From an uncultured Planctomycetaceae bacterium (lineage in GTDB: Bacteria > Planctomycetota > Planctomycetia > Pirellulales > UBA1268), in the NCBI GenBank assembly GCA_903831155.1, contig CAIKWU010000651.1, positions 1-40,367 of the forward strand: a stretch of 40,367 nt of DNA. Direction: 5' to 3'. The position numbers were made by a program, and so were the translations under genes. Below the pieces are notes generated by a model. The model saw nothing but the letters and a program-made list of their open reading frames with translations, made no database searches and was not told the origin of the DNA. Of the stretch, positions 1,506-36,273 are shown piece by piece; the first letter of the stretch is position 1; each line of letters begins with the position of its first letter.

Positions 1506-1628
1506 GGGTGCGGCCGGGGACTGGAGCGGGGGGAATCGTGCCCGCAACTATGCCCCACGGTGGCGTCCCGGGCGCCGGCTCTTCCGACGGACGCCGGTCC
1601 GATCGTGCCGACGGTGACGGCGGATCCG

Positions 1629-2099
1629 TCACGCGTCCGCGAGGGCCGCGAGCACCTGGTCGGCGTGGCCGTCGGGCTTCACGGCCCGGAACACCTTCGC
1701 CACGCGGCCGGCTGCGTCGATCACGAACGTACTGCGGACGATGCCCATCGATTTTTTCCCGTAAAGCGTCTTTTCCCGCCAGGCGCCGTACTTCTCGGCC
1801 ACGGCGTGATCGGGATCGCAGAGCAGGGTGAACGGGAGCTTGTGCTTCGTGCGGAACTTCGCGTGGGCTTCCGGCCCGTCGCGGCTCACGCCGAGCACGA
1901 CGGCCCCGAGCCGCGCCAGTTTGGCCTTGGCGTCGCGAAAGCCGCAGGCCTCTCTCGTGCAGCCCGGCGTATCGTCCTTCGGGTAGAAATAGAGCACGAC
2001 GGGCGCGCCCCTGAGGCTCGAGAGTTTGAGCTTCGTGCCCTCGTGGGTGACGAGCGTGAAATCGGGAGCCTTGGCCCCCTCCTCGATCCAGTCGGCCAT
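1629..2099 (-). CDS. bcp: Peroxiredoxin, Bcp/PrxQ type (thioredoxin-dependent thiol peroxidase)
   Basis: MADWIEEGAKAPDFTL...VVLYFYPKDDTPGCTREACGFRD. The CTxEAC motif carries peroxidatic and resolving Cys spaced as in BCP/PrxQ. Confidence 0.93.
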   Translation of the reverse strand: MADWIEEGAKAPDFTLVTHEGTKLKLSSLRGAPVVLYFYPKDDTPGCTREACGFRDAKAKLARLGAVVLGVSRDGPEAHAKFRTKHKLPFTLLCDPDHAVAEKYGAWREKTLYGKKSMGIVRSTFVIDAAGRVAKVFRAVKPDGHADQVLAALADA

Positions 2100-2128
2100 G
2101 GTGGATCTCCACGAATGGGCGGAAACGC

Positions 2129-3250
2129 ATGCGGGTGACGCCGATTTCTAGCAGGGAAACCGTGAGCGTCCAGCCGGTCCGGGCCATGCTGCTCACGCCT
2201 TCCGGCCGGGGGGCCCTCGCCGTGGTCGGTGTGACGGGCCCCGGAGCCGTCGATCTCGTCGGGGCCCAGTTCGCTCCCCGCGCCGCCCCCCCGCTCGCCG
2301 CCCAGCCCGACGGCGCCATCGTCTTCGGCACGTGGCGATCGACCGGCGAGGAGGTGGTGGTCGTCCGTCAGGCAGCCGACCGCGTGGAGGTGCACGGCCA
2401 CGGCGGCACCGCCGCGCCGGCCGCCGTGCTCGCCGCGCTGGTGGCGGGCGGTGCGGTTCAGGGACGGTGGCAGGACTGGGCCGAGGGTGGACCCTGTCAG
2501 CGCGAGGCGATCGAGGCACTGCCGGCGGCCACGGCGCCGCGGGCGGCGATGATCCTCTCGCGGCAGGTTTCGGGGCTGATGGACCGCGCGATCGAGGAAC
2601 TCACGGCCGTCGTCACCCGCGGTGACGCGCTTGCCGCCCACCGCATGGCCGGTCGGCTTATCACGGCATCCCGCGTGGGGCTGCGGCTGACCGAGCCGTG
2701 GCGGGTGGTGCTTGCGGGTGAAGTGAACGCCGGCAAGAGCAGCCTGATGAACGCGGTGCTCGGGCACGCGCGGAGCATCGTCTCGCCGACGCCCGGCACC
2801 ACTCGGGACGTCCTGATCGCCACGGCGGTGCTCGACGGCTGGGCCGTGGACCTCGTCGATACGGCCGGGGAACGACGGGCCGGCGAGACCGAGTCGGCCA
2901 CCGAGCGCGAGGGGATCGCCCGGGCCGAGGCCGCGGCGAGGCATGCCGATCTCGTGCTGCGGGTGCTGCCCGCCGACGCGGCCCCGGGATCCAGTTCGCG
3001 TGTCGGCGCCACCGACCTCGTCGTCGTCTCGAAGGCCGATCTCCAAATCGCAACGATCCCGCCCGGGGCCGTCGTGACGTCGGCGGCGACGGGGCAGGGC
3101 GTTGAGGAACTCCTCCGGGCGATCGTCGAGCGGCTCGTGCCCGAGGCAGCGGCCGACCCCGCGCTCCTCGCCGGGCCCGTGCCGTTCACGCGGCGGCAGG
3201 TGGAGACGATCGAGCGGATCGCCGCGGCCGCCGAGCCTGTCCCCCCGTGA
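2129..3250 (+). CDS. MnmE/TrmE-like GTPase, short C-terminus; start may be GTG at 2162
   Basis: N-terminal TrmE-like segment (LLTPSGRGALAVVGVTGPGAV), then G1 GEVNAGKSSLMN, TPGTTRD, G3 DTAGE, G4 SKAD. Ends ...FTRRQVETIERIAAAAEPVPP* without the C-terminal CxGK motif. Confidence 0.8.
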   Translation: MRVTPISSRETVSVQPVRAMLLTPSGRGALAVVGVTGPGAVDLVGAQFAPRAAPPLAAQPDGAIVFGTWRSTGEEVVVVRQAADRVEVHGHGGTAAPAAVLAALVAGGAVQGRWQDWAEGGPCQREAIEALPAATAPRAAMILSRQVSGLMDRAIEELTAVVTRGDALAAHRMAGRLITASRVGLRLTEPWRVVLAGEVNAGKSSLMNAVLGHARSIVSPTPGTTRDVLIATAVLDGWAVDLVDTAGERRAGETESATEREGIARAEAAARHADLVLRVLPADAAPGSSSRVGATDLVVVSKADLQIATIPPGAVVTSAATGQGVEELLRAIVERLVPEAAADPALLAGPVPFTRRQVETIERIAAAAEPVPP

Positions 3251-3315
3251 CTCCCTGTTATCCCCGCACTGCCCGCCCCGTCATGGCCGGTCCGTTGCGA
3301 GTGGCATGCACTCAG

Positions 3316-3455
3316 CGAGGGGCTACCCGTGCCCTGGGAGCCGGGCTATGGCAGCAAGCGAAGCCAGGATGGCGAAACGCAGCGGACATGCAGTGAGCGT
3401 CAGGCAGGATGCCTGACGCGAACGTCCGGCGACGGGGCAGGGGCAGCCTCGAGCC
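3316..3455 (+). repeat. Structured ~140 bp intergenic repeat, copy 1 (TIR-flanked, two internal GGA-loop hairpins)
   Basis: Matches the reverse complement of 33673-33811 over its length, including shared CAAGCGAAGCCAGGATGGCGAA and CGCGAACGTCCGGCGACGGGGCA. Perfect 10-bp stem GCGTCAGGCA-gga-TGCCTGACGC at 3397-3419. Confidence 0.85.
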
Positions 3456-3507: not shown

Positions 3508-4917
3508 TCAGTCGGCGTCGTCGTCCGGCCCGTCGCCCGACGCGTCCTCTGGCCTGTTGCCCGGACTATCGCCCTGCTTATTGCCCGCTTTGTCACCGGT
3601 GCCACGGCCGCGGACGTAGAGGCGGATGGGAACCTCCCTGAACGGCAACTCCTTGCGGAAGGCGTTGAGCAGGTAGCGACGGTACGGGTCCGACACGCTC
3701 CGCGGCGCGCTGGCCGAGATCACGATCGTCGGCGGGCCGACCTCGACCTGCGTGGCGAAGTAGAGCCGCACCGGCCGGCCCTTGGAGTCGGCAGGCGGCT
3801 GGTTTGCCTCGACCGCCTGCCGGAGCACGGTGTTGAGCCGGGCCGTCGCCGCCCGCTCGTGGCTCTGCCGATAGAGCCGCTGGGCCGTGTCGATCGTGGC
3901 CTTCACGTTGCGGCTCGCGGTGGCCGTCACGAAGGCCACCGGGGCCCACGGCATCGTCCGGAACGTGTCGCGGAGATACTGCGTCCATTCCCGCTTCTTG
4001 ACGTCGGCGGCGTAGAGGTCCCACTTGTTGACCACGAAGACCACCGGCTTGGCCTCCTCCGTGATCGTCTCGGCGAGCTGCTTGTCGACCTTGCCGATCG
4101 GCTCCGTGGCGTCGAAGAACAGGAGCACCACGTCGGCCCGACGGATGCTCCGCTGGGCCCGGTGGGTGGAGTAGAAGTCGATGTCGCTGGTGCGGCTCTT
4201 CGCCCGCCGCAGGCCTGGCGTGTCGATGGCGAGAAACGACCGGCCGTCGACCTCGAACCTCACGTCCACGCTGTCGCGGGTGGTGCCGGCGACGGGGCTC
4301 GTGATCACCCGCTCCTCGCGGGCCAGGGCGTTGACGAAGGTGCTCTTGCCGACGTTGCGGCGGCCTACCATGGCGAGCTTCATCTCGGGCAGTTCGGCCG
4401 TTTCGGGGTCGTCGATGCCGGGCGGTGGCAGCCGCGCCATGATCGCGTCGACGAGCGGGCCACGGTTGCGGTGCTGTCGGGCGCTGACCACGAGCGGCGG
4501 GCCGAAGCCGAGGGCCGAGAACTCGTGGGCCTGCGGATCGAGGTGGGGCGCGTCGGCCTTGTTGACGACGAGCAGCACCGGGCAGCCCGTCTTCCGGACC
4601 CGCTTGGCCACCTCGAGGTCGGATGGCAGCAGGCCGCTGCGGACGTCGACCATGAAGAGCACGACCGCCGCATGCGCGAGCCCCGACTCGATCTGCCGGT
4701 CGATCTGGGCCGTGAGGCCGTCCGGGTCGTCGAACCCCATGCCGCCGGTGTCGACCAGCTCGATCACGCGGCCGTCGAGCTCGATCCGCTGGACGAGACG
4801 GTCGCGGGTCACTCCGGCGGTCGGGTCCTCGATCGCAATCCGCTTCTCCACGAGCCAGTTGAACAGGCTCGACTTGCCCACGTTGGGCCGACCGACGATC
4901 ACGACTTGGGGAATCAT
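3508..4917 (-). CDS. der: Ribosome biogenesis GTPase Der (EngA)
   Basis: Two tandem G domains (GRPNVGKSSLFN and GRRNVGKSTFVN) and a C-terminal KH-like domain. Start MIPQVVIVGRPNVGKSS at 4917, not the longer 5610 ORF start. Confidence 0.96.
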   Translation of the reverse strand: MIPQVVIVGRPNVGKSSLFNWLVEKRIAIEDPTAGVTRDRLVQRIELDGRVIELVDTGGMGFDDPDGLTAQIDRQIESGLAHAAVVLFMVDVRSGLLPSDLEVAKRVRKTGCPVLLVVNKADAPHLDPQAHEFSALGFGPPLVVSARQHRNRGPLVDAIMARLPPPGIDDPETAELPEMKLAMVGRRNVGKSTFVNALAREERVITSPVAGTTRDSVDVRFEVDGRSFLAIDTPGLRRAKSRTSDIDFYSTHRAQRSIRRADVVLLFFDATEPIGKVDKQLAETITEEAKPVVFVVNKWDLYAADVKKREWTQYLRDTFRTMPWAPVAFVTATASRNVKATIDTAQRLYRQSHERAATARLNTVLRQAVEANQPPADSKGRPVRLYFATQVEVGPPTIVISASAPRSVSDPYRRYLLNAFRKELPFREVPIRLYVRGRGTGDKAGNKQGDSPGNRPEDASGDGPDDDAD

Positions 4918-32105: not shown

Positions 32106-32747
32106 ATGTCACGGGCGAGACGGATCGGCGATGCGGGTGGGCCGTCGGGTCGGCTGGCGGACTCCGCCCGCGCCGCCGTCACCGTGGCGATCGCCGTCTA
32201 CATGGTCGGGCTCGCGCTTGCGATCGCCACCAACTCGCTCAGCGGCTCGTCGGCCCTGCTCGGCACCGTCAAGTCGAGGCTCTACTCGCCCTGGCTCGTG
32301 CCGGCGTGGCTCGATCTGGGCTTCGACACCCGGCTCACGTACGGGCTCGACGAGGACGCCGACCACGAGATCGAGATCGCGCCCCGCGGCACGGGCGGCG
32401 AGCCGCTGATGCTGCCCGGCTCGCGATCCGGAGAACGAGCCGCGAGGTGGCGGCGGCTGGCACGGACGATCGCGGTGGGAGGCCTCGACGGCGACGGCAG
32501 CGTGGTGGCCGCCGGCGTCGGCCGGGGCGGGTTCGTGACCACCGGCACCGCCGACGTCGACGTCCGCGTGTTCCGGCTGCCCCATCCGGAGCGGACGGCA
32601 GCCGTCGAGGGGGATGCCGAGCAGGTCTATGCCGCGCGGGTGCGCCGCGTGGATGACGACGTGCAGCTCATCCGCGACGAGCCCCGCGGCGAACTCGCGC
32701 CGCTCGTCGCGCCGCAGGTCCCGGCCGCGTCGGAGGCTGCGCCATGA
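32106..32747 (+). CDS. Hypothetical single-TM protein, partner of the downstream HTTM-like protein
   Basis: ATG 32106. N-terminal TM segment (AAVTVAIAVYMVGLALAIAT), then a soluble domain. Overlaps the next gene by 4 bp. Confidence 0.7.
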   Translation: MSRARRIGDAGGPSGRLADSARAAVTVAIAVYMVGLALAIATNSLSGSSALLGTVKSRLYSPWLVPAWLDLGFDTRLTYGLDEDADHEIEIAPRGTGGEPLMLPGSRSGERAARWRRLARTIAVGGLDGDGSVVAAGVGRGGFVTTGTADVDVRVFRLPHPERTAAVEGDAEQVYAARVRRVDDDVQLIRDEPRGELAPLVAPQVPAASEAAP

Positions 32748-33616
32748 GCGACCGGCGCCCCGACGAGCCGTCTTCAGCGATCGGCGACACGTGGATGCGA
32801 TTCTGGTTCGAGCCGGCGGCCGTGCGACCGCTGGCGGTGGTCCGCATCCTCACCGGCCTCCTGGGCCTGCTGCTCGTCTGGTCGTATGCCGGCGACCTGC
32901 TCGCCTGGTTCGGCCCCGATGGATCGATCCCGCGCGACGTGGCCGCGGCCTGGAGGCCTCGCTGGGGCGCATCGCTCTACGACCTCGCAGCGGGGCCTTC
33001 CGCCGTTCGCGGCCTGTTCCTCGCCACGATCATCGCCTTCGTCGCCCTCACGATCGGCCTCGGCTCGCGGCTTGCGGCCGTCTGCGCGGCGGTGCTCTGG
33101 GCGTCGCTCCTGCATCGTGGCCCGATGCTCGCCGGTCCGGCTGACGACTGCCTCTCGGTGCTCCTCTGGTGCCTGGCGACCGGCCCCTGCGGCGGCGACC
33201 TGTCGGCGGATTGCCTGCTCGCCGGACGCGGCGCGAGCGCGGCGTCGCCCTGGGCCCGGGTGTCGCTGGGGCTCCTGAAGGTGCATGCCGCGGCGATCAC
33301 CGCCGCGGCCCTCCTCGCGCAGCTCAAGGGCGACGCGTGGTGGAACGGCACGGCCTCCTGGTGGCTCGCCTCGCGGGCCGGGGCCGTCGATCTGCGGGCG
33401 GCGTACCTCGGCTCCGAATACCTGATGAACTTCGTCACGCACGCCATCGTGGCGTTCGAGATCCTCTTCGCCGCCGGCATCTGGTTCGCGGCCACGCGGC
33501 GGACGGTGGCCCGCATCGCCCTCGTCGCCTGGCCCGTGATCGGGCTGCTCGCCGGCGAGCCGCTCTGGGGCGTGGCCATGGCGGTGTTCGCGGTGCCGCT
33601 CGCGGAAGTCGTCTGA
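32744..33616 (+). CDS. HTTM-like polytopic membrane protein (vitamin K-dependent gamma-carboxylase-related fold)
   Basis: RFWFEPAAVRPLAVVRILTGLLGLLLVWSYAGDLLAWFGPDG, several TM helices, LLKVHAAAITAAALLAQLKGDAWWNGTASWW pattern seen in HTTM proteins. Confidence 0.72.
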   Translation: MSDRRPDEPSSAIGDTWMRFWFEPAAVRPLAVVRILTGLLGLLLVWSYAGDLLAWFGPDGSIPRDVAAAWRPRWGASLYDLAAGPSAVRGLFLATIIAFVALTIGLGSRLAAVCAAVLWASLLHRGPMLAGPADDCLSVLLWCLATGPCGGDLSADCLLAGRGASAASPWARVSLGLLKVHAAAITAAALLAQLKGDAWWNGTASWWLASRAGAVDLRAAYLGSEYLMNFVTHAIVAFEILFAAGIWFAATRRTVARIALVAWPVIGLLAGEPLWGVAMAVFAVPLAEVV

Positions 33617-33672
33617 GGTCACCGCCGGGAACTCGGCCAGGTTTCCGACGGGACAGCCGCGTCTGCCCTTGG

Positions 33673-33811
33673 CTCGGGGCTGCCCGTGCCCCGTCGCCGG
33701 ACGTTCGCGGTGGGCATCCTGACCGCCGCTCACTCGGATGCCGCCGGCGCTTCGCCATCCTGGCTTCGCTTGTCGGCATACGCCGGCTCCCGGGGCACGG
33801 GCAGCCCCGAG
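33673..33811 (-). repeat. Structured ~140 bp intergenic repeat, copy 2 (perfect 21-bp terminal inverted repeats)
   Basis: Ends CTCGGGGCTGCCCGTGCCCCG ... CGGGGCACGGGCAGCCCCGAG are perfect inverted repeats. The interior matches copy 1 at 3316-3455 in opposite orientation. Confidence 0.88.
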
Positions 33812-33877
33812 CTGAGTTCGTGACCCGATGAGGTGCAGGTCGGCACCCGTCACCAGTGGTTCGGCGCCGGAGAGGGC

Positions 33878-36273
<2,396 letters not shown>

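Follow-up and report, generated by a model that had tools for sequence, protein, structure and literature searches.

REPINs are doublets of REP sequences that form a hairpin (PMC3116915), and IS200/IS605 elements follow the direction of replication (PMC5371812). GTAG/CGTC-tagged REPs and the TIR/TIRYT families are palindromic intergenic repeats that lie in unidirectional and convergent gaps and are reported from the PVC group, and inverted-repeat families without a transposase of their own also exist (PMC3733652). The repeats of CsrB are CAGGA(U/A/C)G sequences within hairpin loops (PMC7652899).

Here we describe a family of structured repeats of about 145 bp that is confined to one, mostly freshwater, family of Pirellulales. 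Two copies lie in the window, a stretch of 40,367 nt (contig CAIKWU010000651.1 of assembly GCA_903831155.1) from an uncultured Planctomycetaceae bacterium. The literature on planctomycetes yielded nothing specific to this family. Like REPINs, the element is a short extragenic unit with two inverted arms around a spacer and many dispersed copies, and it exhibits compensatory changes, single arm units in tandem and folding of one strand. Unlike REPINs, no RAYT partner was found for it, its spacer contains two conserved hairpins with GGA loops, and one-strand specificity and strand polarity were measured in the present analysis. Tagged REPs and TIRYT repeats are likewise palindromic and intergenic between unidirectional and convergent genes, but they are 20–40 bp long, as opposed to 145 bp. 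GTAG is absent from the consensus of the element, and CGTC forms part of the right arm (GAACGTCCGGCGACGG) rather than an unpaired tag at an end. The TIRYT motif GGGGWSAS is not matched by the arms of the window copies, although a diverged arm from the relative M30B53, GGGGTGAG, matches it. With MITEs the element shares terminal inverted arms, a non-coding nature and high copy number; it differs from them in that no target-site duplication was detected and the interior is conserved by structure, and no transposon with the same ends was found among the Y1_Tnp genes examined. Its CAGGAUG hairpin loops recall the CsrA sponges of the CsrB/RsmZ type, from which it differs in having two hairpins and in being dispersed at high copy number. 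We consider it probable that these repeats are miniature, non-coding, non-autonomous, REPIN-like mobile elements that spread as a folded single strand by means of machinery acting in trans.

Two copies in the window

The first-pass annotation had described positions 3316–3455 as matching the reverse complement of 33673–33811 essentially from end to end. This match is real: 3305–3455 and the reverse complement of 33671–33822 are 81% identical over 85 nt and 88% identical over 64 nt, the similarity ends at these borders, and the identical blocks quoted for the two copies are present in both. The features concerned are as follows; the genes were called with a home-made codon model and are not taken from an annotation.

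3311–3454, plus strand: element copy 1 (model placement; the left end may reach about 3303)
3319–3335, plus strand: left arm of the outer stem of copy 1 (columns 11–27 of the structure alignment A1)
3358–3378, plus strand: first inner hairpin of copy 1 (P2 tip), with the loop GGA at 3367–3369
3397–3419, plus strand: second inner hairpin of copy 1 (P3), with the loop GGA at 3407–3409
3435–3450, plus strand: right arm of the outer stem of copy 1 (columns 130–145 of A1)
33672–33816, minus strand: element copy 2 (model placement)
33707–33729, minus strand: second inner hairpin of copy 2 (P3), with the loop GGA at 33719–33717
33751–33770, minus strand: core of the first inner hairpin of copy 2 (P2), with the loop GGA at 33760–33758
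2162–3250, plus strand: gene for a 362-aa GTPase (MMR_HSR1, with a TrmE_N match under the cut-off), upstream of copy 1 and converging on der
3508–4902, minus strand: der (EngA) GTPase gene, the 3' end of which faces copy 1
32744–33616, plus strand: gene for a 290-aa protein without a Pfam match, the 3' end of which faces copy 2
33878–35899, minus strand: ligA (NAD-dependent DNA ligase), the 3' end of which faces copy 2

No transposase lies inside or adjoins either copy, in agreement with the initial observation. The GTPase upstream of copy 1, which had been called MnmE-like, is a short protein that has a G domain and matches TrmE_N below the threshold only. This gene and der are retained as a convergent pair in many congeners, with protein identities of 46–62%. 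The left end of the element is about 8 bp longer in many copies, with the consensus GGC.CGAA.

Copy number, distribution and dispersal

The genome from which the window derives (G000) is a MAG of 4.39 Mb in 652 contigs. BLASTN against it gave matches for the 40 candidates scored, of 201 in total, and a core 20-mer with up to three mismatches gave 92 matches (46 per strand), a few of them weak or unrelated (L089 and L090 are inside genes), as compared with one for the reversed control. Chance similarity is thereby ruled out as the source of the match in the window, as is the idea that only two copies exist genome-wide, and the many intergenic copies with conserved ends that an element family should have were found. 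Forty of the 92 core matches (43%) are no more than about 110 bp away from the end of a contig, where 3.6% would be expected. This excess indicates that assembly breaks at the element, which fragments MAG assemblies of these bacteria; the true copy number is thus probably higher than 92, and the count in G000 is probably a lower bound.

Relatives were screened with a covariance model. Homologues in related planctomycetes, which the mobile-element reading had anticipated, were present, in a first sample, in 34 of 37 family members and 0 of 23 genomes from other families, and in 44 of 50 and 0 of 197, respectively, when 247 Pirellulales genomes were sampled. A pattern scan of named genomes gave, among the matches listed, planctomycete MAGs only (one is titled 'bacterium'), many of which are from lakes by title. 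Phage records and IMG/VR contigs contained no match, and a phage or virus origin was rejected on these grounds.

The convergent pairs GTPase/der and ligA/neighbour are retained in many congeners, and the gap between them is without the element in most; the ligA gap is just 22–25 bp in two congeners, and some gaps hold other repeats or single arms. Another palindrome, the repeat CACAGGTTGAAAACCTGTGCTAC, occupies the gap next to der in two congeners (L224 and L226) and also adjoins several G000 copies (in the flanks of L024, L039, L080 and L087). The empty sites expected in close relatives were thus found as orthologous gaps that are mostly element-free, no exact empty site being aligned because, even in the closest congener, der shares only about 87% identity with that of G000. 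Given that orthologous sites mostly lack the element and that the match stops at its borders, the copies were dispersed, and a longer segmental duplication is ruled out. Taken together, the copy number, the homologues in relatives and the element-free orthologous gaps support the non-autonomous, MITE- or REP-like nature first proposed for the repeat.

The nearest relative of a copy was in its own genome in 50% of cases versus 15% in shuffles. In 13 of 16 cases, downstream tandem units of about 40 bp were closer to their own copy's arm than to those of other copies (87% vs 78%), in keeping with local duplication. In several copies (L003, L020, L026, L028 and L075), a further conserved segment, GGCCGGTCGGCTTGTACGAATGCGGCATGAA or similar, is found in the left flank; together with the element it makes up a mosaic as in BIMEs.

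Fold and folding strand

Against dinucleotide shuffles, the folding z-scores were −4.95 for copy 1 and −7.6 for copy 2. In A1, which comprises 53 copies from G000, the consensus fold consists of a 16-pair outer stem, the inner stem GCCGG/CCGGC and the enclosed hairpins P2 and P3; the interior is thus more than a loop and comprises two conserved hairpins. The cells of the alignment pair in 93.9% of cases over 42 named pairs and in 97% over the outer stem. Both sides are altered in 20 of the 42 pairs, none of 500 shuffles reached any of the five measures, and the pairing signal was lost when partner positions were slid along the alignment. Ten other genomes of the family, with 72 matches aligned by fitting to the model, gave the same picture: both sides are altered in 19 of 34 pairs (0 of 500 shuffles as high). 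Three subfamilies in G000 retain P2 despite differing in sequence. Neither window copy nor the element scored above the gathering threshold of any Rfam family, and identity with a known Rfam RNA is ruled out.

The stems contain far more G-U than A-C combinations (73:13 in G000 and 56:9 in the relatives, about 6:1), and where bases do not pair, the rates of the underlying C-to-T and G-to-A changes are less than twofold apart. Given that a cruciform predicts equal numbers of G-U and A-C and folding of the other strand predicts the reverse, the folded molecule corresponds to the plus strand of copy 1; that is, the strand that carries the GGA loops is the one that folds. The element had been described as TIR-bounded: the inverted arms exist, as the stems into which a single strand folds and not as TIRs with proven cleavage by a transposase.

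Gene context and strand polarity

The gaps that hold the element in G000 are convergent, tandem and divergent in 17, 20 and 1 cases (38 copies), as compared with 3, 16 and 15 for element-free gaps (chi-square p = 1.4e-5), and the corresponding numbers in relatives are 34, 38 and 2 versus 13, 126 and 61 (p = 1.4e-15); the element-free control gaps come from loci chosen for holding the element, so that the size of the enrichment is approximate. In Pirellulales bacterium M30B53 (G254, to which locus L115 belongs), a long-contig relative with the most alike, young copies, the numbers are 11, 29 and 10 versus 36, 198 and 67, and divergent gaps are not avoided. In tandem gaps, the folding strand is the transcribed strand in 32 cases and the opposite strand in 26 (p = 0.51), and a cis-acting mRNA element read by neighbouring genes was rejected for this lack of bias.

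The strong enrichment of convergent gaps, the avoidance of divergent ones and the very stable fold would also suit RNA structures useful to the host at gene ends, such as bidirectional terminators, mRNA stabilizers or read-through blocks, that are kept where genes converge. We regard this explanation as unlikely, because an element that folds on one strand shows no preference for the transcribed strand in tandem gaps, its sites vary among congeners, the youngest copies, those of M30B53, are less biased to convergent gaps, and the stem is not followed by a U-tract. Our reading of the same distribution is that the mobile element inserts without regard to genes and that copies upstream of genes are then lost.

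M30B53 contains 56 exact copies of a subfamily 22-mer, which point to a recent burst or homogenization; the homogeneity could be due to gene conversion. Among 49 separate places in this genome, 32 of 33 adjacent pairs on the same contig are co-oriented. The element is on the C-rich strand in 43 of 53 M30B53 copies (p = 6e-6) and in 49 of 70 copies in ten other genomes (p = 0.001), in both cases independently of the gene strand; in G000, no polarity relative to GC skew was detected (13 of 24 copies). If the leading strand is G-rich, as a replication reading of GC skew assumes, this polarity would link the spread of the element to replication.

The M30B53 element has different arms, an array of arm tails and upstream hairpin modules that recur with it. 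The larger arrays of this genome (L115, L135, L157, L168, L178, L179 and L184) contain the element, in the order of a CGGGACGGGTC...GACCCGTCCCG hairpin, GGCCGCAGGCC...GGACAGGCC, the element and one to three 42-bp arm units.

Mobilizing enzymes and traces of insertion

No mobilizing enzyme was found in the transposase class examined, Y1_Tnp. G000 has one Y1_Tnp/RAYT gene (L111, on C94) and M30B53 has two (L419 and L420, on C17), which are flanked by AAAAGGTG-type inverted repeats and not by the element. The AAAAGGTGYCAG-like inverted repeats around L111, L419 and L420 apparently represent a separate REP family. No Y1_Tnp match was obtained in 20 of 34 element-positive genomes of the family, 12 of which are at least 92% complete (e.g., G009, G012, G013, G018 and G032, at 93–97% completeness). 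The resident RAYTs were thus rejected as mobilizers, having inverted repeats of their own in G000 and M30B53 and being absent from many positive genomes. Direct repeats of 4–9 bp at the ends of the element were no commoner than with mismatched flanks, which speaks against insertion with target duplication. Mobilization in trans is what we infer for the element.

In its size, its inverted arms and tandem arm units, its extragenic placement, its fold and its strand polarity, the element resembles REPINs and IS200/IS605 elements (PMC3116915, PMC5371812), as it would if it were a REPIN in the strict sense, mobilized on single-stranded DNA by a tyrosine HUH transposase of the RAYT/IS200 type. This is improbable in view of the 20 element-positive genomes without a Y1_Tnp match and the separate AAAAGGTG-type repeats of the RAYTs in G000 and M30B53; in addition, on the assumption of a G-rich leading strand, the strand that folds serves as the template for leading-strand synthesis, the reverse of what IS608 leads one to expect. 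The element is palindromic, extragenic and high-copy and folds through paired arms, as REPs and REPINs do, but no RAYT flanked by it was found, and it is therefore not filed as a REPIN.

Two element copies, L052 and L075, first looked like autonomous versions, but each is interrupted by an unrelated IS. This IS has the ends GAATGGCAGGAAGTTA, encodes a 451-aa transposase (DDE_Tnp_1) and lies at an identical position within P2 in both copies.

L075 (G000:C391:7800-10900), 1568–3094: unrelated IS in an element copy, with an 11-bp duplication, CAGGCGGCATC
L052 (G000:C233), from about 1605: unrelated IS in an element copy

This IS may target the element.

Hairpin loops and CsrA

The tip loops in G000 are GGA in 41 of 53 P2 and 30 of 53 P3 hairpins, most of the others being CGA, and in the relatives the P3 loop is GGA in 96 of 106 hairpins; the P3 figure lies outside the search pattern, which biases that for P2 in relatives. 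The loops keep GGA, whereas the stems vary freely. The loop motif is that of the CsrB repeat, CAGGA(U/A/C)G, and the loops are mostly (A)GGA. The TwoAYGGAY RNA motif also has two hairpins with GGA loops, and some relatives' elements have AUGGAU loops similar to it. It is listed among the Rfam motifs in PMC2864571 and was absent from the Rfam matches of the element up to an E-value of 10.

G000 contains four csrA genes:

G000:C351:20828-20983, csrA
G000:C351:2713-2868, csrA
G000:C82:3188-3328, csrA
G000:C641:781-954, csrA

Whether or not they carry the element, the 60 genomes tested all have csrA (1–14 genes each), which rules out csrA presence as the cause of the element's distribution; CsrA binding therefore stays a lead, not a result.

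Judging from its sequence, the element could be a CsrA-binding RNA that has spread as a mobile decoy, with two hairpins carrying CsrB-like CAGGAUG loops (PMC7652899). The retention of GGA in loops with freely varying stems, the presence of GGA on the folding strand and the four csrA genes would agree with this idea. It is, however, very unlikely, given that CGA replaces GGA in about 40% of P3 and about 20% of P2 loops in G000, that most loops have three or five nucleotides although CsrA/RsmE prefer an ANGGAN hexaloop, that csrA occurs equally in element-free genomes and that the transcribed strand is not favoured. Very unlikely, too, is the combined proposal of a clade-specific miniature element that would need no tyrosine HUH transposase to propagate, in the form of a folded single strand with a fixed polarity, that would bind CsrA through its two conserved GGA loops and that would seed CsrA decoys as it spreads.

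Discussion

Our preferred reading, a REPIN-like mobile element, suggests the following course. The two inverted arms pair, in the manner of REPINs, into a long stem that encloses the two inner hairpins, most of whose loops are GGA. The element would spread by transposition in the form of a single strand, either ssDNA or RNA, that is folded and has a defined polarity, the mobilizing machinery being supplied in trans. Selection would then remove copies upstream of genes, so that older copies would end up downstream of genes, mostly between convergent ones.

REP-like repeats are usually explained by RAYTs, and the present element is abundant in genomes without a RAYT match. Its one-strand fold and its near-uniform orientation in M30B53 make the RAYT-free spread of short structured repeats testable in this family of Pirellulales, and the CsrB-like loops offer a second testable idea.
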